From Flavobacterium sp. GT3R68 (GTDB taxonomy: Bacteria; Bacteroidota; Bacteroidia; Flavobacteriales; Flavobacteriaceae): 64,000 nt of DNA. The translations under genes and the position numbers were made by a program. Under the pieces are notes generated by a model, which saw nothing but the letters and a program-made list of their open reading frames with translations, searched no databases and was not told where the DNA came from. The DNA lies in NCBI RefSeq assembly GCF_007109225.1, contig NZ_VJZK01000008.1, positions 32,818 through 96,817 of the forward strand, in the 5' to 3' direction. Positions 1 through 58,577 of the stretch are shown here, piece by piece. The first letter of the stretch is position 1; each line of letters starts with the position of its first letter.

Positions 1-73
1 GACTCGATAGCTCAGTTGGTAGAGCACATCACTTTTAATGATGGGGTCCTGGGTTCGAGCCCCAGTCGGGTCA
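1..73 (+). tRNA. tRNA-Lys (anticodon TTT), first copy
   Basis: A full cloverleaf can be drawn. The acceptor arms GACTCGA (1-7) and TCGGGTC (66-72) pair with one G-T wobble, and A73 is the discriminator. The anticodon arm CATCA/TGATG encloses CTTTTAA, giving anticodon TTT at 34-36. The T arm carries GGTTCGAGCCCC. CCA is not encoded. The gene begins exactly at the window edge, so its promoter lies outside. Confidence 0.95.
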
Positions 74-110
74 CAAAATGACCAATCATTTACAGAATTT
101 CTTGAAGCAT

Positions 111-183
111 GACTCGATAGCTCAGTTGGTAGAGCACATCACTTTTAATGATGGGGTCCTGGGTTCGAGCCCCAGTCGGGTCA
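111..183 (+). tRNA. tRNA-Lys (anticodon TTT), second copy
   Basis: This copy is identical in all 73 bases to the tRNA-Lys at 1-73 and lies 37 bases downstream, so it is a recent tandem duplication or is kept identical by gene conversion. The spacer has no promoter or terminator that I can see, so both copies are probably processed from one transcript. Confidence 0.95.
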
Positions 184-185
184 CA

Positions 186-217
186 AAAAGTCGAGCATTT
201 CCTGCTTGACTTTTTTT
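186..217 (+). terminator. Hairpin with T-run after the tRNA-Lys pair
   Basis: AAAAGTCGAGCA pairs with TGCTTGACTTTT around a 5-base loop with one G-T wobble, followed by more T residues. It could end the tRNA-Lys transcript or act as a spacer hairpin before tRNA-Leu. Confidence 0.55.
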
Positions 218-223
218 ATTTAC

Positions 224-306
224 GGCCACGTGGAGAAACGGTAGACTTGCCAGCTTGAGGGGCTGGTGCTCGCAAGGGCGTGTGGGTTCAAATCCCACCG
301 TGGTCA
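224..306 (+). tRNA. tRNA-Leu (anticodon GAG)
   Basis: The acceptor arms GGCCACG (224-230) and CGTGGTC (299-305) pair fully with one G-T, and A306 is the discriminator. The anticodon arm CCAGC/GCTGG encloses TTGAGGG, giving anticodon GAG. The long variable arm (TGCTCGCAAGGGCGT region) is the class II feature expected of leucine tRNAs. The T arm has GGTTCAAATCC. CCA is not encoded. Confidence 0.95.
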
Positions 307-316
307 CAATAACAAG

Positions 317-417: not shown

Positions 418-1314
418 ATGAACATTAAAAATGTCTTTAGTATAAAAGATCTTGAAAATCTCTCTGGGGTAAAAGCGCATACCATTCGGATTTGGGAAAA
501 AAGATATAATATCCTGCAACCAATGCGATCTGATACGAATATCCGTTACTACAATCTGGAAAGTCTCCAAAAATTACTTAACATTACTTTATTACATAAT
601 CACGGTTTTAAAATTTCAAGGATTGCTACATTTTCGGATGAAGCAATCTCACAAATGGTCCTGGATGTTTTATCTGAAAAAAGCGTAAAAAACCATGCCA
701 TCAATGCACTTAAAATAGCAATGATGAAGTTCGATCAGACATCGTTTTCTGTAACTTATATTAATTTACTGGAAGAAAAATCTTTTAACGAAATTTTTTA
801 CGAAGTCTTTATTCCTCTTCTGGAAGAGATAGGCCTGTTATGGCAAACAAACACCATTACTCCTGCCCACGAACATTTCATTTCCTATCTGATCAGACAA
901 AAATTACTGATAAATACTGAAAAAATTCAAATGCTGCCCCGTACCAAAACTGACAAAGTGTTTATTTTGTATCTGCCATTGAATGAAATCCATGAATTGG
1001 GATTGATGTATCTTCACTACGAGATTATGCTACAGGGTTATCAGTCCATCTATTTGGGTGAAAGTATCCCTATGGAAAATCTCAATGATCTGAAGCGATA
1101 TTTTGACTCCATTGTGTTTGTATCCTATTTTACAGTTCAGCCTCAAATGGATCAGATTGACGACTACCTTACTAAATTTACTAACGAAATTTTAAATGAT
1201 TCAACTTCCAAATTGTGGCTTTTGGGAAAAATGACGCGGTTTATCGATACTAAAAAACTGATTCCGAACACAGTAATATTCGACACTATCTCTGAATGCG
1301 TCGATAATCTTTAA
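418..1314 (+). CDS. MerR-family regulator with cobalamin-binding domain (CarH/LitR-like)
   Basis: This is a predicted transcription factor of 298 aa. Residues 6-75 form a MerR winged helix-turn-helix (FSIKDLENLSGVKAHTIRIW). The rest resembles the four-helix plus Rossmann B12-binding module of CarH/LitR photoreceptors. W142 is followed after nine residues by E152-H153, the W-x9-EH signature for adenosylcobalamin, and E190-I-H192-E-L-G195 fits the E/D-x-H-x-x-G motif whose His is the lower cobalt ligand. The residue after W142 is Gln, where T. thermophilus CarH (from memory) has the His that becomes the second ligand in light. I chose the ATG at 418 because MNIKNVFSIKD starts like other MerR proteins; an upstream in-frame extension has no such similarity. 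It lies 57 bases before crtI-crtB-crtZ, and CarH proteins typically repress carotenoid genes in the dark. Confidence 0.82.
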   Translation: MNIKNVFSIKDLENLSGVKAHTIRIWEKRYNILQPMRSDTNIRYYNLESLQKLLNITLLHNHGFKISRIATFSDEAISQMVLDVLSEKSVKNHAINALKIAMMKFDQTSFSVTYINLLEEKSFNEIFYEVFIPLLEEIGLLWQTNTITPAHEHFISYLIRQKLLINTEKIQMLPRTKTDKVFILYLPLNEIHELGLMYLHYEIMLQGYQSIYLGESIPMENLNDLKRYFDSIVFVSYFTVQPQMDQIDDYLTKFTNEILNDSTSKLWLLGKMTRFIDTKKLIPNTVIFDTISECVDNL

Positions 1315-1355: not shown

Positions 1356-1372
1356 TATTTTTGTTAAACAAA
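1356..1372 (+). promoter_or_regulatory. crtI promoter -7 element and inverted repeat operator
   Basis: TATTTTTG at 1356-1363 fits TAnnTTTG, and TTTGTT-A-AACAAA at 1360-1372 is the same inverted repeat found before the regulator gene. The repeat ends on the A of the crtI start codon. If transcription begins 4-7 bases after the -7 element, crtI mRNA has almost no leader. No clear TTG box is present at 18-20 bases upstream. Confidence 0.6.
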
Positions 1373-2832: not shown

Positions 2833-3672
2833 ATGAAAGCTATTTTTGATAAAATTTCGTTTGAATGTAGTAGGAATGTCACTAAATCCTACAGTACGTC
2901 CTTTTCGTCAGCAGTAAAAATGCTCGGACCGGATATTCGCCAGGACATTTATAATGTATATGGGTTTGTTCGTTTTGCGGATGAAATTGTCGATAGTTTC
3001 CATGATTATGACAAGGCGATTTTATTTGCGCTATTTGAAAGAGACTTGGAATTGGCGTTAAAGAATAAAATCAGTTTAAACCCTGTGTTGAATTCATTCC
3101 AACATACAGTTGCGAAATACAACATTCCTTTGGAATTGATTGCGTCCTTTATGAAAAGCATGAGATTGGATTTGACAAAAAACCAGTACGCTACCCAGGA
3201 GGAATACAACGAATATATTTTTGGATCAGCAGATGTTGTGGGTTTAATGTGTCTGAAAGTTTTTGTTAAAGGGAATGATGATCAATATGCCGAATTGAAA
3301 AATGCTGCCATGAGATTGGGTTCGGCTTTTCAAAAGGTCAACTTTTTGCGAGATTTAAAAGCAGATTTTGAAGGCCTAAACCGTTCGTATTTTCCCAATA
3401 CTGATATGAACCGACTGGATGAGACTTCCAAACAGAAAATTATTGAAGAAATTGAAGCCGATTTCAAGGCCGGGTATGAAGGTATTATAAATTTGCCTCT
3501 GGACGCGAAATTTGGCGTCTACACCGCATATATCTATTATAAAAAACTGCTCTATAAATTAAAAATGACGCCTTCTGCTCAAATAAAAAACAGCCGGATC
3601 CGGGTTCCCACCTATCAGAAATATGGGCTTTTCGCGAAGTGTTATTTTAGTTATAAGCTGAATATCATTTAA
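2833..3672 (+). CDS. crtB: Phytoene synthase
   Basis: This 279-aa protein condenses two geranylgeranyl diphosphates to phytoene, the first committed step of carotenoid synthesis. The Asp-rich metal/diphosphate site appears as VRFADEIVDSFHD near residue 50. The second one, VNFLRDLKADFEGLNRSYFP, lies near residue 170 and contains the family NxxxDxxxD pattern. The gene begins 3 bases after crtI, which indicates tight co-transcription. It acts before CrtI although encoded after it. The length is typical. Confidence 0.96.
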   Translation: MKAIFDKISFECSRNVTKSYSTSFSSAVKMLGPDIRQDIYNVYGFVRFADEIVDSFHDYDKAILFALFERDLELALKNKISLNPVLNSFQHTVAKYNIPLELIASFMKSMRLDLTKNQYATQEEYNEYIFGSADVVGLMCLKVFVKGNDDQYAELKNAAMRLGSAFQKVNFLRDLKADFEGLNRSYFPNTDMNRLDETSKQKIIEEIEADFKAGYEGIINLPLDAKFGVYTAYIYYKKLLYKLKMTPSAQIKNSRIRVPTYQKYGLFAKCYFSYKLNII

Positions 3673-3682
3673 ATCAAAAATA

Positions 3683-4126
3683 ATGGGATTACAAATTTTA
3701 GTTTTTCTGATGACTTTCTCCTTTATGGAATTCATGGCATGGTTCAGCCATAAATACATCATGCATGGTTTTTTGTGGAAATTGCACGCCGACCACCATA
3801 AGAAAGATCATAATTCGTGGTTTGAAAAAAATGATGCCTTCTTTATTTTTTATGCGATTATCAGCATCGTTTTTTTTCTGCTATGGCGCCATGGCATTTT
3901 AGAAATCGGACTGTCAATTGGAATCGGAATTTTCGCCTATGGTATGGCCTATTTCATCGTCCACGATATATTTATTCACCAACGCTTCAAATTGTTTCGC
4001 AATGCCAACAACGCATATGCTCGTGCGGTCAGAAGAGCACATAAAATGCATCATAAACATCTTGGCAAAGATCATGGGGAATGTTTTGGCATGCTAATGG
4101 TACCATTCAAATATTTTAAAAAATAA
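3683..4126 (+). CDS. crtZ: Beta-carotene hydroxylase (fatty-acid hydroxylase superfamily)
   Basis: This 147-aa di-iron membrane hydroxylase is expected to convert beta-carotene to zeaxanthin, the usual yellow pigment of flavobacteria. The His clusters are present in order: HKYIMH, HADHH, HDIFIHQR and HKMHH. Hydrophobic segments flank them (residues 1-20, about 48-65 and 72-92). The ATG follows crtB by 10 bases and a strong terminator follows the gene, so it ends the operon. The lycopene cyclase (crtY) that must act before it is not in this window. Confidence 0.95.
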   Translation: MGLQILVFLMTFSFMEFMAWFSHKYIMHGFLWKLHADHHKKDHNSWFEKNDAFFIFYAIISIVFFLLWRHGILEIGLSIGIGIFAYGMAYFIVHDIFIHQRFKLFRNANNAYARAVRRAHKMHHKHLGKDHGECFGMLMVPFKYFKK

Positions 4127-7151: not shown

Positions 7152-8225
7152 TTAGTCATTAAAATAAAAACCTGCAGGAATAACACCTACAGTATAATCA
7201 TGTTCCAATACTCCTGTTAACGAATAAATATACACTTTTCCGTTGGCACTATAATCTCCTGCATCACCAACAAAGATTTTGTTGTTTTCCACTTTAAAAC
7301 TATAAATTCCATAAGCGCCCTGACTTGTAGTGGTAAACAAAGGGGTTGCAGGTAAGGTCGTTGCCGTTAAAGTAGTTTTAAAAATTCCTGAATCCAAAGT
7401 ATAATACACCGCTTCGTTTTCAATTTCCAAATTAGAAGGATGTGATGCCGTCGCAAAATTAATTGTGCCGGTAACGGTATTATTACTCAAATCCACCTTA
7501 ACCAGTTTACCAGCACTTTCAGCACCCGACCAAGAAGGTTTCCCTCCACAAATTACATATAGATTTCCATTATTTATTTCAACAGAATTTGGAAGATCTC
7601 CAACCGGAATACTTGTTGAAACGGTATTCGTAGCCGAGTTAATTACCGAAACGGTACTTCCAAAACCATAACCACCATAATGGGCCACATATAATTTATT
7701 GTTATATTCAACGATTTTTTCCGGACCTTCCAAAACTGAGATTGTACTTGAAACTGTATAATCGGTAAGGTTGATAACGGCTACGAAATCATCATTTGCA
7801 TCATTCCCATTTCCCCAGTTCGTTACATAGCCTTTACCATTTGCAAAAGCGATATATCTCGGATTACTCAATCCTGTAGTAATTGTTGCTACCGTTTCAA
7901 ATGAATAACGATCTACAACCTCTATTTTATTAGAACCATTCAATATGATGAACGCATAATTGTTGTAAAAACCCATGTCCTGAGCGGTATCACCTAAAGT
8001 AATCGTGGGATTCACTACTGAAAAAACAGTGTTTTGAAAGGTTGCAAAATCATTAGAGAGATACGAAACAGATGCATTCCCATTTCCAAAACCACCTTGA
8101 TTCAAAATTAAGGCACCATTGTCATAAGTACCAAGAGGCGCATCCTGCACATTATCATTATTATCGCAAGACACCAAAAAAACAGTACTTATCAATGTGA
8201 CTAAAATTACTTTTTTAAAATTCAT
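7152..8225 (-). CDS. DUF5074 / YncE-like beta-propeller lipoprotein of the B12 uptake locus
   Basis: This 357-aa protein starts with a lipoprotein signal (VSCDNN, Cys about 20). Its repeated beta-strand blades look like a YncE-type propeller, for example KIEVVDRYSFETVATITTG and FVAVINLTDYTVSSTI. It lies 4 bases downstream of the BtuB-like receptor and shares its cobalamin riboswitch. In Bacteroidota, DUF5074 surface lipoproteins commonly sit next to btuB-like receptors, so it probably helps capture cobalamin at the cell surface. No cobalamin-binding residue can be assigned from sequence. Confidence 0.82.
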   Translation of the reverse strand: MNFKKVILVTLISTVFLVSCDNNDNVQDAPLGTYDNGALILNQGGFGNGNASVSYLSNDFATFQNTVFSVVNPTITLGDTAQDMGFYNNYAFIILNGSNKIEVVDRYSFETVATITTGLSNPRYIAFANGKGYVTNWGNGNDANDDFVAVINLTDYTVSSTISVLEGPEKIVEYNNKLYVAHYGGYGFGSTVSVINSATNTVSTSIPVGDLPNSVEINNGNLYVICGGKPSWSGAESAGKLVKVDLSNNTVTGTINFATASHPSNLEIENEAVYYTLDSGIFKTTLTATTLPATPLFTTTSQGAYGIYSFKVENNKIFVGDAGDYSANGKVYIYSLTGVLEHDYTVGVIPAGFYFND

Positions 8226-8229
8226 TGTA

Positions 8230-10059
8230 TTAAAATTTAAGGGTTAGATTCATATTTATATTTCTGCCAGGCATGGGTCTCATCGACACACTTTGGTAGT
8301 TTTCGTTTAGAAGATTCAGGATCTGAAAGCCTAGTTTGCACGTACTTATTTTTCCGAAATTATAATCAATTCCCAGATTTGAAACTTTGTAACTATCCAA
8401 AGCATAATAATTATCCGAGGAAGTAAACACTTGACCGTTATATAGAAATTGGTAAGAAGCCGTTACTTTTTTGAAGGAGTAAGATGCTGAAGCGGTGATC
8501 TTATGAAATGGGACATATATCAGCTGTTTGTGTTTTTGTTCATCATTTGAAACAGTATAAGCATACGTTCCATTCAGCTCAAAATGATGTTTCCCTGTAT
8601 TTTTAACCCAATTAAATAACGCTTCAGTTCCGTAGGTAGTAACCTTGGCGATGTTATTTGGTGACCAGACTCCATTTGGACCCGGTGACCACCGTAACAT
8701 ATCCTCTATTTTAATATAATAACCTGTGGTGGAAAGAGTAATGTTTTTATATTTTATCTCTTGTCCCATTTCGGTCTGGAAGGAACTTTCGGGTTTTAAA
8801 TTGGGGTTTCCGCTTCCCTGCCAATACAAATCGTTAAAAGTGGGAATTCTGAAATTTCTGGAAACGTTGTATTTTAAGGCATAATTTTTAGAAATGTCAT
8901 ATTTTGCCCCTAAAGAATACAAAATAGGGCTTTTATAATTTGTCGTAAATTCTTTTCTGAAACTGATTTCATATTCCAAATTCTCCAAAATACGATGTTT
9001 CATCAATAAAGCTCCCGAACCGATTTGTCTTTTATTTTCACCAATATCCGAACCATAACCTTTCGTTTGCGTGAAATCAGCAAGCACATTTAAACAGATA
9101 TTAGAACCTGCTTTAAAACTTAAATCGTATTTGACGATACTCGTTTCAGCTTTCCCTTTGGTAAAAAAAACAGCATCCTTATCTTCGAAATATTTATATT
9201 CTTCATCCAGAAAAGCCAGCTTCAGTTTGGATATAAATTGCTTATAAGCTCCAACCCATTCCAACATATTCCTGGCATTTACACTCTGGTATTTACTTTT
9301 TGAAGGTGCCGCAAGGGTTCCCGAGAAATGTCTTTCGCTATCAAAAAACTGACTGTATAGCTTTAACGTATTTTTGGTATTTATTTTATAGCCAACACTC
9401 GCATTGAAACTCGTGCTGTAATATTCTCCGTTTTCGTTTTTTTTACTCGTATACAGATACTTATAATCATTTTCAGAATTGTTTCGGGAAATACTAACCT
9501 GAGAACTTATGTTTTCATTGGAAGCTTTCAGATCATAATGTACTCCCAAAGTATTAAAACTCCCGAAGTTCAATTGCAATTCATTCACAAACTGATTCCT
9601 GAAATCCAAATCATTATTCAGGTGAATGCTTCCGCCAATGGCACTGCTGCCATAAATTGCGCTTCCACCGCCAGCCCTTACAGATATCGAACTAAAATCG
9701 CGTGTGGTTATCGTATTGAAATCGGTTTGTCCGTTAAGTTGTGAATTGATGTTGATCCCGTTCCAGATGACCGCGGTCTGTTGTGCGGTTGTTCCTCGGA
9801 AAGAAGGCGAAGAAACCATGCCAAGACCATTTTCTTTAAAATAGATAACCGTATTATAATTCAAAAGCGAAGTTAATGACGGCTGGTTTTTCTCAATAAT
9901 CGAATCGTTTAATTTTTGAACCGATTGGGTGTTGGAGAAGTTTTTAAGATAGGTGTCGGAAATGAGGACTTCATTTAAGTTTGTTATAGAATCATGCTGA
10001 GCCAAACCAATTTGGCACATAAATAAAAGACAAAATAAAAGTAGCTTTTTCGCAGTCAT
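8230..10059 (-). CDS. btuB: TonB-dependent cobalamin receptor (BtuB-like)
   Basis: This 609-aa outer-membrane protein has a signal peptide (LLLFCLLFMCQIGLAQ), an N-terminal plug with the motif AIYGSSAIGGSIHL, and about twenty predicted beta strands ending in the aromatic C-terminus LTLKF. The size matches E. coli BtuB (about 614 aa with signal). Assignment to cobalamin rests on the cobalamin riboswitch directly upstream and on the neighbouring btuFCD genes. It should bring B12 across the outer membrane using TonB/ExbBD energy. The DUF5074 lipoprotein follows in the same transcript. Confidence 0.9.
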   Translation of the reverse strand: MTAKKLLLFCLLFMCQIGLAQHDSITNLNEVLISDTYLKNFSNTQSVQKLNDSIIEKNQPSLTSLLNYNTVIYFKENGLGMVSSPSFRGTTAQQTAVIWNGININSQLNGQTDFNTITTRDFSSISVRAGGGSAIYGSSAIGGSIHLNNDLDFRNQFVNELQLNFGSFNTLGVHYDLKASNENISSQVSISRNNSENDYKYLYTSKKNENGEYYSTSFNASVGYKINTKNTLKLYSQFFDSERHFSGTLAAPSKSKYQSVNARNMLEWVGAYKQFISKLKLAFLDEEYKYFEDKDAVFFTKGKAETSIVKYDLSFKAGSNICLNVLADFTQTKGYGSDIGENKRQIGSGALLMKHRILENLEYEISFRKEFTTNYKSPILYSLGAKYDISKNYALKYNVSRNFRIPTFNDLYWQGSGNPNLKPESSFQTEMGQEIKYKNITLSTTGYYIKIEDMLRWSPGPNGVWSPNNIAKVTTYGTEALFNWVKNTGKHHFELNGTYAYTVSNDEQKHKQLIYVPFHKITASASYSFKKVTASYQFLYNGQVFTSSDNYYALDSYKVSNLGIDYNFGKISTCKLGFQILNLLNENYQSVSMRPMPGRNINMNLTLKF

Positions 10060-10104
10060 AATTTCTGAACTTTTTTTCCCGAAAGTTCGATATTCGTTAA
10101 GAAA

Positions 10105-10285
10105 AAGGCAGGTCTCCTGGCTTGCGTCTTGTTGTTTACCTTCCCAAATAGCTGAAATAATCAGTAACTCAGTGGTTTTGTAGATAACAACAAGCTTAGT
10201 AGCTTACAGTTGCGGGAACAGCTTAGGTTTTGAACCTAATTCCCTTTTAATGTGATTTATGAAAATCATAATCACAACCTTAATT
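10105..10285 (-). promoter_or_regulatory. Cobalamin (AdoCbl) riboswitch controlling btuB
   Basis: Read on the minus strand, the core contains AGCTGTTCCCGCAACTGTAAG, the B12 box-like ACCACTGAG (about 10168-10176), TTTGGGAAGGTAAA and the closing GCAAGCCAGGAGACCTGCC. These are conserved blocks of the cobalamin riboswitch in the usual order and spacing. The region between it and the btuB ATG (10060-10104) can form a hairpin (GAACTTTC with a GAAAAAAAGTTC-like partner) and may be the expression platform. High B12 should reduce expression of the receptor and the DUF5074 lipoprotein. With its promoter, this accounts for most of the gap 10060-10403. Confidence 0.92.
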
Positions 10286-10291
10286 CGAGTG

Positions 10292-10322
10292 CAAATATAG
10301 GTTCTCAAAAAGGAATTAACAA
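10292..10322 (-). promoter_or_regulatory. Promoter of the btuB riboswitch transcript
   Basis: On the minus strand TTG (10322-10320) is followed after 20 bases by TATATTTG (10299-10292), matching the Bacteroidota primary sigma consensus. Transcription would begin near 10285, exactly where the riboswitch sequence starts. Confidence 0.75.
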
Positions 10323-10403
10323 TGTTTTTTTGAAGAATGAATATAATTTCGGACTTTCTTTAATATTTTTCTTATTTTTATAACTGATTTGAAACCTATT
10401 ATC

Positions 10404-11267
10404 ATGAAAAAAACAATACTCTTTCTTTTGTTTTCAACTTTTGCAATGGCACAGTCCACTGTTGAAATTCGAATAGTTAATGCATCATTTGGGCAACCTT
10501 TATTTAATTATACAGTTAATCAGACGACCGAATCCAATGATGCGGTATTAAATGCAATTTTTCAAACGCACCATGTTTATAGCTATATACCAAAAGGTGG
10601 GCATCCTTATCCCAATTATGCAAATAAGGTAATGGAAGCCCAATGTAATAACTGTAACTTGAATCAATTAGCTCTAGATTTGCAATCCTATTCTACGGTA
10701 GTAGCTGCTGCCAAAGTTTCAACTTATGGCTACTTTAAAGATGCTTTGAGACTGCAACTTTTTAATTTAAACTATGGGATTCCAACAGGAACTAACAACA
10801 ACATTATTGTTACAAATGATGCGGGACTAAATCAAATTTTTCAGAATTATAATGTCTTTTATTATACGCAATCCTTTCCATATGCCTCTATTGGATCTTC
10901 TCTATTAAGAGTTTTTGATGTAGTTTGCAATTGCGACAATACCTTATTGAAAACGGCATTGGATAATTACAATACTTTAGTTGACCATGCCGAATATATT
11001 AACGCAGCCTATTTACTTGGAAATTCACAATTTGATTTATCCAAAACGACCATTTATCCAAATCCATTTGAAGATACTTTTAATATTAATGGTACAGAAG
11101 GGATTATAAATTATACTGTTTTGGATAACACAGGAAAACAAATAATTAATACTAAATTAAAAAGTGAATTAGATAATTTTTCTCCTCAATTAAATTCTGG
11201 TCTTTATATCTTAAAACTTCAATTTGAAAACGGACAGAATGCCAACTATAAATTGGTAAAGAAATAA
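10404..11267 (+). CDS. Secreted protein with T9SS type A sorting domain, unknown function
   Basis: This 287-aa protein has a signal peptide (MKKTILFLLFSTFAMAQ) and a C-terminal Por secretion sorting domain (IYPNPFEDTFNINGTEG ... SGLYILKLQFENG). It should cross the outer membrane by type IX secretion. The middle has two similar halves, each with a Cys pair (AQCNNCNL and DVVCNCDN) and a preceding tract resembling LNAIFQTHHVYSYI / LNQIFQNYNVFYYT, so the mature protein is an internal duplication. I do not recognise the family. I used the ATG at 10404; an upstream TTG is possible. It sits between the two arms of the B12 locus, but a role in B12 uptake is not shown. Confidence 0.75.
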   Translation: MKKTILFLLFSTFAMAQSTVEIRIVNASFGQPLFNYTVNQTTESNDAVLNAIFQTHHVYSYIPKGGHPYPNYANKVMEAQCNNCNLNQLALDLQSYSTVVAAAKVSTYGYFKDALRLQLFNLNYGIPTGTNNNIIVTNDAGLNQIFQNYNVFYYTQSFPYASIGSSLLRVFDVVCNCDNTLLKTALDNYNTLVDHAEYINAAYLLGNSQFDLSKTTIYPNPFEDTFNINGTEGIINYTVLDNTGKQIINTKLKSELDNFSPQLNSGLYILKLQFENGQNANYKLVKK

Positions 11268-11293
11268 AATTCCATTTTGCCGTAGGATTCTTA

Positions 11294-11301
11294 TACCTTT
11301 G
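11294..11301 (+). promoter_or_regulatory. -7 element of the btuFCD operon
   Basis: TACCTTTG fits TAnnTTTG and lies 23 bases before the btuF ATG. The nearest TTG is only 14 bases upstream, so the -33 box is weak. No cobalamin riboswitch is present in this short leader. Confidence 0.5.
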
Positions 11302-11323
11302 CATTCTTTGCAAAAGTTTTATT

Positions 11324-12463
11324 ATGAAATCAAATATTCGCCGTATTGTTCTGTTTTTGATGGTAATCTCCTTGCTTGGATGCAAAAAGGACCAAACAAC
11401 TACCCTTACTGTAACCAAAGCACAAAATTCGATTCAATATGCCAACGGCTTGGAAATCTACAAACATGAAGGCTATTCGGTTGTAAAAATTACGAATCCG
11501 TGGCCGGAAGCGAAAGAAAGCTTAACCTATATTCTAAAGCAAAAAAATGGAATTATCCCGGACAGTCTGAAGCAGTTTACCACTATTCCCATTCCGATAA
11601 AATCCATTGTGGTGACTTCAACTACTCATATTCCCTCACTGGAAATGCTTGGTGTTGAAAATACCTTAATCGGATTTCCGAATACGGATTATATTTCTTC
11701 TGAAAAAACCCGCCAACTGATTGATGCCGGGAAAGTCCGGGAAATCGGTAAAAACGAAAACCTGAATACCGAAGTCCTGATTGATATGGCCCCGGATGTA
11801 ATCGTCAGTTTCAGCCTGAACAACAGCAATCCAACGTTAACAAATTTACAGAAAAGCGGTTTAAAAGTAATCCTAAATGGTGATTGGACCGAGCAGTCTC
11901 CACTGGGAAAAGCCGAATGGATCAAGTTTTTTGGCACCCTGTATGGCTTGGATAATAAGGCAAATTCGCTTTTCTCAGAAATCGAAAAAGAATATAATGC
12001 GACTTTGGCTTTAGCCAAAAAAGCAACAACGAATCCTACTGTTTTGAGTGGTGCAATGTTTCAGGATCAATGGTATGTGCCTCAAGGCGAGAGTTGGGCC
12101 GCTTTGTTCCTGCAAAATGCCCAATCAGAATACCTTTGGAAAGACAGTAAAGGAACCGGAAGCCTGACATTACCTTTCGAAAACATTTTAGAAAAAGCTC
12201 AGCATGCCGAATTCTGGGTTGCGCCCGGAGATTTTTCTTCCCTAAAACAAATGAGTGACAGCAACCCGCATTACAATCAGTTTGCGTCATTTAAAAATAA
12301 AAAAGTATATTCGTATGGTGTAAATAAAGGAGCCAAAGGCGGAACTATTTATTTCGAATTGTCTCCAACACGACCCGACTTAGTCCTTAAGGATTTGATT
12401 AAAATTTTTCATCCTGAATTATTACCCAATCATAAACTTTTTTTCTTTCAGAAATTAGAATAA
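11324..12463 (+). CDS. btuF: Cobalamin ABC transporter substrate-binding lipoprotein (BtuF-like)
   Basis: This 379-aa protein has a lipobox (ISLLGC) and the two-lobed periplasmic-binding fold of the iron-siderophore/cobalamin class, for example SIVVTSTTHIPSLEMLGVEN and VLIDMAPDVIVSFSLNN. It should deliver cobalamin from the periplasm to BtuCD. The family also binds siderophores; the cobalamin assignment comes from the adjacent riboswitch-controlled btuB. It is longer than E. coli BtuF (266 aa), as is common for Bacteroidota lipoprotein forms. btuC begins one base after its stop codon. Confidence 0.82.
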   Translation: MKSNIRRIVLFLMVISLLGCKKDQTTTLTVTKAQNSIQYANGLEIYKHEGYSVVKITNPWPEAKESLTYILKQKNGIIPDSLKQFTTIPIPIKSIVVTSTTHIPSLEMLGVENTLIGFPNTDYISSEKTRQLIDAGKVREIGKNENLNTEVLIDMAPDVIVSFSLNNSNPTLTNLQKSGLKVILNGDWTEQSPLGKAEWIKFFGTLYGLDNKANSLFSEIEKEYNATLALAKKATTNPTVLSGAMFQDQWYVPQGESWAALFLQNAQSEYLWKDSKGTGSLTLPFENILEKAQHAEFWVAPGDFSSLKQMSDSNPHYNQFASFKNKKVYSYGVNKGAKGGTIYFELSPTRPDLVLKDLIKIFHPELLPNHKLFFFQKLE

Positions 12464-12464
12464 A

Positions 12465-13496
12465 TTGAACCATACCACCCGAAATACCGCTCTTTTCATA
12501 TTCCTGACCATGGGACTTTGTTTTTTGTTTGTCATCAACATCAGCCTGGGTTCAGTTTCAATTCCGGTAAAAGAGATTTTCACCAGTCTTTTTGGAGGAA
12601 ATGCCACTAAAGACACTTGGGAATACATCATCATTAACTACCGTTTGCCAAAAGCTATTGCAGCGGTTCTCGTTGGAATGGGACTTTCTATCAGTGGATT
12701 GCTGATGCAAACCCTGTTTCGAAATCCGCTTGCAGGACCTTATGTTTTGGGATTGAGTTCCGGTGCCAGTTTAGGGGTAGCCATGGTTATTTTGGGCGCG
12801 GCTTTTCTCCCGCCTTTTATAGCTTCAGTTTTATTATCTTCCTATGGTATTGTTTTGGCTTCCAGTTTAGGAAGTTTTTTTGTGTTATTGGCAGTTTTGG
12901 CGGTTTCCCAAAGGCTGCGCGATACCATGGCCATTTTAATTGTGGGATTGATGTTTGGAAGCTTAACCAGCGCGATTGTAGGAACCTTAACCTATTTTAG
13001 TACTGCTGAACAATTGCAAAAATTTACTTTTTGGTCGTTGGGGAATTTGGGGAATTTATCCTGGACAGCAATACTCATTTTAACAATATGTACAGCCATC
13101 GGCTTGCTGATGGGGATTTTCAGTATCAAGCCATTAAATGCACTTCTTCTGGGAGAAAATTACGCCAAAAGTCTGGGGTTGAATTATAAAAAAGCGAGAC
13201 TGGTCATCATTTTTGCCACGAGCATTCTTGCAGGAAGCATCACAGCTTTCGTAGGACCCATTGCTTTTATAGGGTTAGCTGTTCCACATATTGCAAAACT
13301 AGTTTTCCAAACCAGCAATCACAATATATTATTTTGGAGTACGTTGGTTTTTGGAGCCATCATCATGCTGATCTGCGATATAATTTCGCAGGCACCGGGA
13401 AGCGATATTACCTTACCAATAAATGCCGTGACATCTATTTTTGGCGCTCCTATTGTTATTTGGCTATTGGTTAGAAAACGAAAAATGATGGCATAA
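12465..13496 (+). CDS. btuC: Cobalamin ABC transporter permease (FecCD/BtuC family)
   Basis: This 343-aa protein has about ten membrane helices and FecCD signatures such as LPKAIAAVLVGMGLSISGLL, NPLAGPYVLGLSSGASLG and FVGPIAFIGLAVPHIAKL. The start appears to be TTG at 12465, one base after the btuF stop: the first ATG, at codon 16, would cut into the first transmembrane helix (ALFIFLTMGLCFLFVINISL). A rare start in a tightly packed operon suggests translational coupling. It forms the channel with the ATPase encoded next. Confidence 0.88.
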   Translation: MNHTTRNTALFIFLTMGLCFLFVINISLGSVSIPVKEIFTSLFGGNATKDTWEYIIINYRLPKAIAAVLVGMGLSISGLLMQTLFRNPLAGPYVLGLSSGASLGVAMVILGAAFLPPFIASVLLSSYGIVLASSLGSFFVLLAVLAVSQRLRDTMAILIVGLMFGSLTSAIVGTLTYFSTAEQLQKFTFWSLGNLGNLSWTAILILTICTAIGLLMGIFSIKPLNALLLGENYAKSLGLNYKKARLVIIFATSILAGSITAFVGPIAFIGLAVPHIAKLVFQTSNHNILFWSTLVFGAIIMLICDIISQAPGSDITLPINAVTSIFGAPIVIWLLVRKRKMMA

Positions 13497-14278
13497 TGGA
13501 AAACACAATCATCTTACAAGCTTCCTCTATCAGCATTGGCTATTCTCATAAAAAAGAACAAAGCATTGTTGCTGAAAATATTGATCTATCACTCAAAAAA
13601 GGAAAGTTAGTCGCTTTGATCGGTGCTAACGGAATTGGAAAATCGACTCTTTTAAGAACGATAACCGGAATTCAGAAAACCATTTCAGGTACCGTTTTCC
13701 TCAATGGAAAAAACATCCATGAAAGTGACGCGTTGACCTTGGCACAGAATTTAAGTGTCGTTTTAACCGAAAAATTACCTCCTAGTAACTTAACTGTTTT
13801 TGAACTCATTGCATTAGGAAGACAACCGTACACAAATTGGATCGGAAAGTTAACTGATACTGATATTGCAAAAGTGAACGAAGCGATGGAAATGACGCAA
13901 ATCAGTCACTTAGCAGCCAAAAAACATTATGAAATCAGTGATGGACAATTGCAAAAAGTCTTAATCGCCCGCGCTTTGGCACAAGATACTCCATTAATTG
14001 TACTGGATGAACCTACAACCCATTTGGACTTACTGCACAAAGTATCATTATTCAAATTACTGAAGAAACTGACTCAGGAAACCCAGAAATGCATTTTGTT
14101 TTCCACGCATGATATTGACATGGCGATTCAGCTGAGCGATGAAATGATTGTGATGACTGCGGAAACTGTAGTCCAGGATCAGCCCTGTAATTTTATTGCA
14201 AACGGGACTTTCAGCACGTTATTCAAGGATGATCATATTGTTTTCGATAAGGAGAAAGGTAAATTTATGATTGTCTAA
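13496..14278 (+). CDS. btuD: Cobalamin ABC transporter ATP-binding protein
   Basis: This 260-aa ATPase has Walker A GANGIGKST, Walker B LIVLDEPTTHLD, and a variant signature motif ISDGQLQKVLIARAL in which LSGGQ reads ISDGQ. The switch His lies in FSTHDID. Its ATG overlaps the btuC stop by one base. Together with btuC and btuF it completes a B12 importer. The stop codon overlaps the end of the convergent methyltransferase gene by four bases, leaving no room for a separate terminator. Confidence 0.88.
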   Translation: MENTIILQASSISIGYSHKKEQSIVAENIDLSLKKGKLVALIGANGIGKSTLLRTITGIQKTISGTVFLNGKNIHESDALTLAQNLSVVLTEKLPPSNLTVFELIALGRQPYTNWIGKLTDTDIAKVNEAMEMTQISHLAAKKHYEISDGQLQKVLIARALAQDTPLIVLDEPTTHLDLLHKVSLFKLLKKLTQETQKCILFSTHDIDMAIQLSDEMIVMTAETVVQDQPCNFIANGTFSTLFKDDHIVFDKEKGKFMIV

Positions 14279-43100: not shown

Positions 43101-43180
43101 GTGTGCCCCTATCGGGTCGGGCTTTCCGTTTCAATCCACGCCCAAAAGCGTGGGATTTCCACTGCAATCCCTCACACAAA
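43101..43180 (-). repeat. Palindromic intergenic repeat, copy 1 (5' of mtaB)
   Basis: The core at 43121-43169 is GGCTTTCCG..., then the stem CCACGC/GCGTGG, then TTTCCACTGCAATCC. On the minus strand it aligns with copy 2 at 48243-48315 over about 48 bases: GATTGNAGNGGNA, the CCCAC stem, GTGGAT and CGGAAAGC are shared. It starts 20 bases from the mtaB ATG and lies downstream of a TAAATTTG -7 element, so it would be in the mRNA leader. Confidence 0.75.
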
Positions 43181-43201
43181 ACACTTTATAAAAAGAGTTT
43201 G

Positions 43202-48226: not shown

Positions 48227-48242
48227 TTGTTTAGACTAAATG

Positions 48243-48315
48243 CCTAGCCCTGATTGAAGCGGCATCCCACACTTTTTTGTGTGGATACAGCGGAAAGCAG
48301 GAAATAGCTCCTGAA
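48243..48315 (+). repeat. Palindromic intergenic repeat, copy 2 (5' of pgm)
   Basis: The core at 48252-48298 begins GATTGAAGCGGCATCCCACAC, has the loop TTTTTT, then GTGTGGATAC and CGGAAAGC. It pairs as CCACAC/GTGTGG. In copy 1 the same stem reads CCACGC/GCGTGG, so one base pair has changed on both sides. It ends 13 bases before the phosphoglucomutase ATG and has the same orientation relative to it as copy 1 has to mtaB. Confidence 0.75.
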
Positions 48316-58410: not shown

Positions 58411-58577
58411 GATACTGCCTACATTAGTTCATATTGGTAAACTCAACACTAACATTTTAGAATGAGCGAATCATCACTACTAAAGCATGCCACGCTTCGG
58501 CGAGGAAACTTGAACAGTGAGTTAGCTCAAAACTTGTCTTTTCGAGTTTATACAAGCAATCTAATGTAGGCTTTTTT
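58411..58577 (+). ncRNA. ssrS: 6S RNA (6S-Flavo type)
   Basis: The gap between zapA and rny contains a closing stem: GCCTACATTAG at 58417-58427 pairs perfectly with CTAATGTAGGC at 58561-58571, followed by T6. Inside is a large, AT-rich internal loop with smaller hairpins (GCATGCCACGCTTCGGCG region). This matches the layout of 6S-Flavo RNAs, which imitate an open promoter and bind RNA polymerase. Position beside zapA and rny fits what I recall for flavobacteria. The 5' end is approximate. Confidence 0.72.

Follow-up and report, generated by a model that had tools for sequence, protein, structure and literature searches.

A CarH-like regulator gene heading the carotenoid operon of Flavobacterium sp. 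GT3R68, a predicted B12-using light switch with glutamine in place of the second cobalt ligand

A gene at the head of a carotenoid operon in Flavobacterium sp. GT3R68 very probably encodes a B12-using light switch for the adjoining carotenoid genes. The gene lies in a window of 64,000 nucleotides, the whole stretch of DNA analyzed here, and we compared it with related loci and genomes of the family; the fold of its product, the conservation of its residues, the order of the operon, the operator-like sites and the B12 genes were all obtained by computation. An earlier note on this DNA had called the protein a CarH-like B12 regulator, and that call is well supported by the fold, the conserved AdoCbl-contact residues, the place of the gene in the crt operon and CarH-type half-sites in the promoters. 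What is new here is mainly a glutamine conserved across the family at the second-ligand position, together with a rearranged operator; glutamine at this position already has published precedent. The family glutamine points to switching that does not depend on the second histidine of Thermus thermophilus CarH (TtCarH). More tentatively, and as a possibility that we would not yet call the probable outcome, the Flavobacteriaceae may hold a large class of predicted B12 light repressors that have glutamine at the second-ligand place, are water-capped in the light with no bis-His step, carry a loosened nucleotide-tail motif (perhaps for other cobamides), and cover the -7 box and the start codon of crtI, whose mRNA would have almost no leader, by binding half-sites spaced by two helical turns and a further, inverted half-site.

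The carH-like gene, its operon and the supply of B12

The carH-like gene occupies positions 418-1314 of the plus strand, on which all features below lie unless stated, and encodes 298 aa (translation of 418-1311). W142, Q143, H151, E152, H153, E190, H192 and G195 all read from this translation, and the motifs W142-x9-E152-H153 and E190-x-H192-x-x-G195 are present where the earlier note had placed them. We set the start at 418, not at the first ATG of the open reading frame at 325, because homologues align from residue 2 and because an operator-like site occupies 393-405. Pfam searches matched a MerR-type winged-helix DNA-binding domain at 436-633 (residues 7-72; MerR_1 PF13411, 7.8e-15; PF00376, 3.5e-07), which includes R24-x-W26-E27-x-R29-Y30, and a B12-binding_2 four-helix part at 682-930 (PF02607, 9.7e-10), the helices of which are seen in the structure model. 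R24, W26, E27, R29, R43 and Y45 are invariant in the DNA-binding domain across the 51 rows of an alignment (A2). The Rossmann-type cobalamin-binding part (940-1311, residues 175-298) gave no match in the Pfam search and was recognized from the alignment and the model; its distal motif is degenerate. The codons for W142-Q143 lie at 841-846, those for H151-E152-H153 at 868-876, and those for E190 to G195, which include the predicted lower axial ligand H192, at 985-1002. The full-length AlphaFold model has a mean pLDDT of 92.7. In a Foldseek search with this model, ranks 1-14 were all T. thermophilus CarH chains, and a second structure aligner scored the TtCarH cobalamin-binding domain at Z 20.6 (rmsd 2.7, 195 residues), tied with the light-responsive proteins SasPcob (Z 20.1) and CtMerR (Z 19.9). 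Upstream, window positions 1-307 hold a tandem pair of tRNA-Lys(ttt) genes with equal Rfam scores and then tRNA-Leu(gag), with carH directly after; two Flavo-1 RNAs and one 6S-Flavo RNA, at or above their Rfam gathering scores, lie at 43111-43182, 48242-48308 and 58441-58549.

The gene heads a carH-crtI-crtB-crtZ block. Following it are crtI, of phytoene desaturase type (1372-2829; NCBIfam CrtID NF058655, 722.9 bits, cut-off 640), crtB, of phytoene synthase type (2833-3672; PF00494, 2.6e-42), and a crtZ-like hydroxylase gene (3683-4126; FA_hydroxylase, PF04116, 2.3e-11) found in the same place in relatives. This order is kept in 19 of 20 genomes for which the downstream 20 kb were compared, and 32 out of 40 loci from more divergent members of the family keep it as well; among the other eight, six read carH-crtB-crtZ without crtI, one has crtI and crtB 1.2 kb further on, and L165 has none of these genes. 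In the six divergent loci with crtB and crtZ directly after carH and no adjoining crtI (L162, L164, L169, L177, L182 and L192), crtI appears from the gene order to have moved or been lost. The crtI product of the window exceeds the cut-off of CrtID, a model for bifunctional phytoene desaturase/3,4-desaturases, and a 3,4-desaturated carotenoid is therefore a possible pigment. Similar arrangements have been reported: in GF1, a MerR regulator with a vitamin-B12-binding domain precedes the zeaxanthin genes, and the authors suggest regulation by photooxidative stress (PMC6974559), and MerR genes occur with crt clusters in Flavobacterium TH167 (PMC5887021) and Nonlabens spongiae (PMC11855829). All three share the association of MerR with crt, and in the available text of these papers they are described by gene order, without residue, operator or biochemical analysis. 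Chryseobacterium lacus makes carotenoid in the light, yet neither car nor lit genes were found in it by its authors (PMC7064467), so other flavobacterial light switches may exist.

We assessed residue conservation in 208 aligned rows, reduced to 201 by dropping rows that share their last 200 residues; 192 of these were classed as Bacteroidota, a class into which every locus through L110 was placed, including some whose record titles give other taxa. Seven rows (L034, L035, L036, L046, L050, L055 and L079) are Flavobacterium-like carH genes with 59-67% identity to that of the window, and the names of their MAGs (Klebsiella, Bifidobacterium, Rhizobium, Chitinophaga, Bdellovibrio) are probably wrong. 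W142, E152 and H192 occur together in 188 of the 192 distinct Bacteroidota rows, the exceptions being L070, L142, L113 and L112; further counts are from these 188 rows, within which the three residues are fixed by the filter. In a set of 57 rows spanning Bacteroidota, Thermus and Proteobacteria (A1; mean column identity 34%), G139, W142, E152 and H192 are the sole invariant columns. Both A1 and A2 were hand-picked from the 208 rows without L070, L112, L113, L142 and L205, and since rows lacking key residues were left out their invariance is partly by choice, and 188/192 is the fairer figure. By comparison with TtCarH and CtMerR, the four invariant residues would make corrin, adenosyl and lower-ligand contacts (PMC10442372, PMC11796333). 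This pattern indicates strong selection on the AdoCbl pocket, which does not extend to the second cobalt ligand of TtCarH.

The source genome encodes a PduO-type adenosyltransferase and has methylmalonyl-CoA-mutase genes and three PF02310 matches. Across the family a CarH homologue (E <=1e-10) was found in 161 of 199 genomes, in 157 of the 184 with PF01923 versus 4 of the 15 without it (Fisher p 2.5e-6), an association confounded by small/reduced or incomplete genomes. In those four (G008, G048, G062 and G064) PF02572 was also not found. All four encode other B12-binding proteins and a motif-intact CarH, so a genome that lacks a known transferase need not lack AdoCbl; G008 and G064, with neither the PF01923 nor the PF02572 adenosyltransferase, are ~99% complete.

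The window also contains a B12-uptake locus (7152-14278). It comprises a cobalamin riboswitch on the minus strand (10090-10297; RF00174, 104.5 bits, the sole match in the genome), a BtuB-like TonB-dependent receptor gene, also on the minus strand (8230-10059; TIGR01779, 3.4e-34, below its cut-off), genes for a nearby BtuF/C/D-like transporter (Peripla_BP_2, FecCD permease, ABC ATPase), and a DUF5074 beta-propeller gene that we take to be in a BtuG-like position from its presumed resemblance to BtuG. Linkage of carH to B12 uptake was rejected as a rule: BtuB-/BtuC-like genes occur in 1 of 20 downstream 20-kb regions (L216), and among the seven of these regions scanned for a riboswitch, one was found in L216 only.

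A protein that binds AdoCbl but senses the state of cobalamin or redox rather than light, repressing with AdoCbl and leaving crt on without it, is unlikely in our judgment. The riboswitch-linked uptake locus ~6-13 kb downstream would suit such a sensor, and no residue proves photochemistry, as photolysis is intrinsic to AdoCbl and its coupling to a response is not. However, the uptake linkage recurs in a single relative of 20, and W142 and E152, the counterparts of the adenosyl-contact pair in TtCarH, are kept together with H192 in 188/192 rows.

Glutamine at the second-ligand position

The residue after W142 is Gln in 161 of the 188 rows, with Gly in 9, Leu in 6, His in 3, Ile, Ser and Thr in 2 each, and Ala, Asp and Arg in 1 each. 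The earlier note had put a histidine, His132, at this place in TtCarH, and CarH of T. thermophilus HB27 (L111, plasmid pTT27) does read W-H where the window protein reads W-Q. The difference from TtCarH is therefore real, but it is no peculiarity of a single protein: glutamine is the family norm. Likewise, the alignment with CarH/LitR proteins that the note proposed as a check recovered the motif residues and the TtCarH histidine, and it showed the glutamine to be commonplace in Bacteroidota. The conservation pattern makes glutamine the rule in the clade that holds the window protein. The Gln rows group together in a tree built from 122 rows (7 changes versus a shuffled mean of 29.8), in which many forks are open and long non-Bacteroidota branches unsure; L205 and rows at least 70% identical to a kept row had been removed. 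Of the nine rows from outside Bacteroidota, the two from Thermus have His after the Trp, six others have Q, A, R, A, E and E there, and L205 is without the motif. Many CarH homologues in a myxobacterial set carry the histidine (PMC9304148).

Variation at this site, Gln included, has been published for light-responsive proteins (PMC11796333, PMC10979010). The photocobilin SasPcob of Saccharothrix syringae (PDB 8J2W/8J2X) shares the B12 fold and is stated to have glutamine at the TtCarH His132 place (PMC11796333); its light state is water/hydroxide-ligated and monomeric, with no large domain swing (PMC10979010). SasPcob differs from the window protein in that a biliverdin-binding domain replaces the DNA-binding domain, in its W-x10-EH spacing (PMC10979010) and in its output, as it is no transcription factor; its oligomer change requires bound biliverdin, and without biliverdin it is monomeric in both dark and light (PMC11796333). 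CtMerR of Chloracidobacterium thermophilum (PDB 8JBS/8JBT) shares with the window protein a MerR-type domain, a B12 domain and a non-His site, but it has Arg rather than Gln there and a divergent DNA-binding domain; it passes from tetramer to monomer in the light (PMC11796333).

Q143 probably does not ligate cobalt in the way of Thermus His132, and SasPcob (Gln) and CtMerR (Arg) are light-responsive without a bis-His state, so a water- or hydroxide-capped light state would be the best guess for the window protein. That its photocycle differs from that of T. thermophilus CarH, as the earlier note raised, is a reasonable possibility. The missing histidine could also weaken the switch, since the TtCarH H132A variant, which has a 352-nm spectrum, stays mostly tetrameric in the light, although an earlier study saw disassembly (PMC10442372). 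For dissociation of the window protein without this histidine, our best guess, by analogy, is that loss of the adenosyl group would weaken the oligomer. The conflicting H132A results bear on how general the bis-His light state of TtCarH is, as an essential step or as a trait peculiar to certain lineages (PMC10442372), and a natural, family-wide set of Gln proteins (161/188) with presumed operators makes this question askable with native flavobacterial switches.

A bis-His light state could instead arise through another residue, with H151 or H153 swinging onto the cobalt after photolysis, which we consider distinctly improbable. H153 is kept in 178 of the 188 rows and position 151 is His in 128 (Gln in 35, Asn in 24, Arg in 1); both adjoin E152, in the helix whose SasPcob counterpart moves in the light. 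The Glu-His helix of SasPcob shifts by ~2.4 A, however, and its light state is nevertheless water/hydroxide-ligated (PMC10979010), and TtCarH H142 is the same histidine as H153, yet the published light state uses His132. Position 151 is Asn or Gln in 38 of the 161 Gln rows (H 123, N 24, Q 14) and Gln in 21 of the 27 others. H151, which the earlier note had offered as a substitute ligand, is thus rejected as a family-wide replacement, the residue being H, N or Q.

Operator-like sites at the carH and crtI promoters

The palindrome TTTGTTWAACAAA occurs by exact search at exactly two places in the 3.06-Mb assembly, upstream of carH at 393-405 (TTTGTTTAACAAA) and at 1360-1372 (TTTGTTAAACAAA), where it ends on the first base, A, of the crtI ATG. 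Its left arm coincides with the end of a presumed TAnnTTTG box, and applying this consensus, which we take to be that of the Bacteroidota -7 box, we place the -7 boxes of carH and crtI at 389-396 and 1356-1363 (both TATTTTTG). A degenerate upstream repeat, CTTGTTCAAG, lies at 1339-1348, 21 bp before the crtI-side palindrome, and holds a minus-strand TnnACA core.

The placement of these sites recurs in relatives. Across 120 loci, which are related and hence not independent, the carH flanks contain 2.79 sites per kb that agree with the palindrome in 12 or 13 of its 13 bases (101 sites in 36,156 bases); the density outside the flanks is 0.013 per kb (14 in 1,083,479), and 78 of the loci have one such site or more. 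In 205 loci, with the same dependence among them, such sites were found on the crtI side in 86 and on the carH side in 44, and in 0/205 on each side after shuffling; the crtI side of 119 loci and the carH side of 161 fall below 12/13. Exact 13-mers within 150 bp of carH number 16 of 127 among the matches listed (14 genomes), with 0.04 expected for a 1,200-bp target in 3.7 Mb, a count that includes the two source-genome sites where the motif was first seen; the matches listed are 150 of 327 sites, 127 of them in 56 genomes with carH coordinates and 23 without. Genome-wide, the 13-mer is no more common than its reversed control (327 versus 327 exact occurrences in 199 family genomes), so only its position is informative. 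A larger regulon, searched for genome-wide as exact sites, was rejected: the exact palindrome is present only at the carH locus of the source genome, and its family frequency equals that of the reversed control.

Published CarH operators consist of TnnACA half-sites in tandem 11-bp repeats (PMC9304148). The flavobacterial arrangement is different: 31 of 36 distinct crtI-side promoters carry a second copy of TTTGTTTAAC, matched in 8 or more of 10 bases, at a distance of exactly 21 bp upstream; each other offset from 10 to 40 occurs in at most 2 of the 36. Of the TnnACA cores in these promoters, two are on the minus strand, at -19 (33 promoters) and +2 (30), and one is on the plus strand, at +5 (35); the +2 and +5 cores follow partly from palindrome-based site choice and the -19 core does not. 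In the window the cores are at 1341 (-), 1362 (-) and 1365 (+) on the crtI side and at 395 (-) and 398 (+) on the carH side. The first ATG falls 11-15 bases past the first base of the site in 79 of 87 rows (twelve commonest classes), and in the window crtI starts with the ATG at 1372. With this ATG at the end of the site, the crtI mRNA is probably nearly leaderless, and a bound repressor would cover both promoter and start codon. For carH, the ATG is 25 bases past the first base of the site, a spacing that is also the most frequent one among relatives (38/94).

Contact between the CarH-like protein and the palindrome is inferred, and the palindrome might belong to another regulator while this protein acts elsewhere or differently. 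We hold that to be very improbable: both genome copies flank carH, placement before carH and crtI recurs in relatives, and the cores agree with TnnACA, the half-site published for CarH (PMC9304148).

We regard as probable, if well short of certain, a CarH-like repressor that binds AdoCbl in the dark, shuts off carH and crtI-crtB-crtZ, and is released by light in a water/hydroxide-capped state. In this model, the binding of AdoCbl, the repression and its release by light are inferred, as are the ligand of the light state and the sizes of the oligomers. In the dark, adenosylcobalamin would be bound base-off, with H192 under the cobalt and W142, E152 and H153 round the adenosyl group, and the bound oligomer would sit on the TnnACA half-sites of the carH and crtI promoters, over the -7 box and, at crtI, also the start codon, keeping carH and crtI-crtB-crtZ off. 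Green or blue light would split the Co-C bond and release adenosine, most likely leaving cob(III)alamin with H192 as its lower ligand and water or hydroxide as its cap. The oligomer could then open through the loss of the adenosyl group combined with movement of the E152/H153 helix.

Relation to known B12 sensors

Several features of a strict CarH are present, namely the N-terminal MerR-type DNA-binding domain (PF13411, PF00376), Wx9EH in the four-helix bundle (W142-x9-E152-H153) and the lower-ligand motif E/DxHx2G (E190-x-H192-x2-G195). The earlier note had taken two motif sets as defining the CarH class. Wx9EH and ExHx2G hold, but the classical B12 motif continues as x41 SxT/V x22-27 GG (PMC8156234), and here these parts read S236-Y-F238 and L269-G270. 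GG is found at 269-270 in 3 of the 188 rows; the methylmalonyl-CoA mutase of the same genome keeps SSL and GG. The SignatureFinder signature of light-responsive cobalamin-binding domains, GxxW/EH/GxxxP, is matched by G139-LL-W142, E152-H153 and G214-ESI-P218, and its GxxH element is broken by N189, a position that is Asn in 148 and Gly in 22 of the 188 rows. The protein scores 76.2 bits against the NCBIfam CarH equivalog NF052513 (cut-off 400). At the carotenoid promoter, TnnACA cores are present as in CarH/LitR systems and the tandem 11-bp spacing is absent. Because of N189, SxF...LG in place of SxT/V...GG and a score below the NF052513 cut-off, we describe the protein as a variant that would work in the manner of CarH, outside the strict CarH class; because of the first two, binding of the nucleotide tail could differ.

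TtCarH, a CarH/LitR protein (PDB 5C8D/5C8E/5C8F, 8C31), remains a close parallel. Both proteins have a MerR DNA-binding domain, four-helix bundle and Rossmann domain, both carry Wx9EH and ExHx2G, and the TtCarH gene also adjoins a carotenoid gene. The two differ in that identity is 18-20%, and the window protein has Gln for His132, Asn for Gly in GxxH, and SxF and LG where TtCarH has SxV and GG; the operator cores of the window are 21 bp apart with an inverted one, in contrast to tandem 11-bp repeats.

A B12-independent, CarA-like repressor with a fossil B12 fold would agree with the degenerate SxT/V and GG parts and with relatives that have lost B12 residues (the Persicobacter proteins L112 and L113, and L070 with H192N), but CarA lacks the Trp of Wx9EH (PMC9304148) and here W142 is present along with E152 and H192, the three being kept in 188/192 rows, which makes this reading the most improbable of all.

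Among the open-licence literature matches listed, with subscription journals mostly outside their scope, we found no study of a flavobacterial CarH protein, the Gln class or its operator. If the model is true, it would bring B12- and light-based carotenoid control to a phylum for which we found only remarks on gene order in that literature, and it could provide a green-light tool for Bacteroidota promoters.

Some natural variants fall outside the general pattern. In L070, from Flavobacteriaceae bacterium PS02334, Asn replaces H192, so that a member of the Gln clade has naturally lost the lower cobalt ligand. On Persicobacter plasmids, L112 and L113 have both lost H192 and H153, and L112 also E152; they resemble CarA-type offshoots. 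A cobalamin-dependent protein of Azospirillum thermophilum (L207), encoded near a histidine kinase gene, has W-Q and AHEH, and by its sequence it appears to be another Gln-type B12 sensor, outside Bacteroidota.
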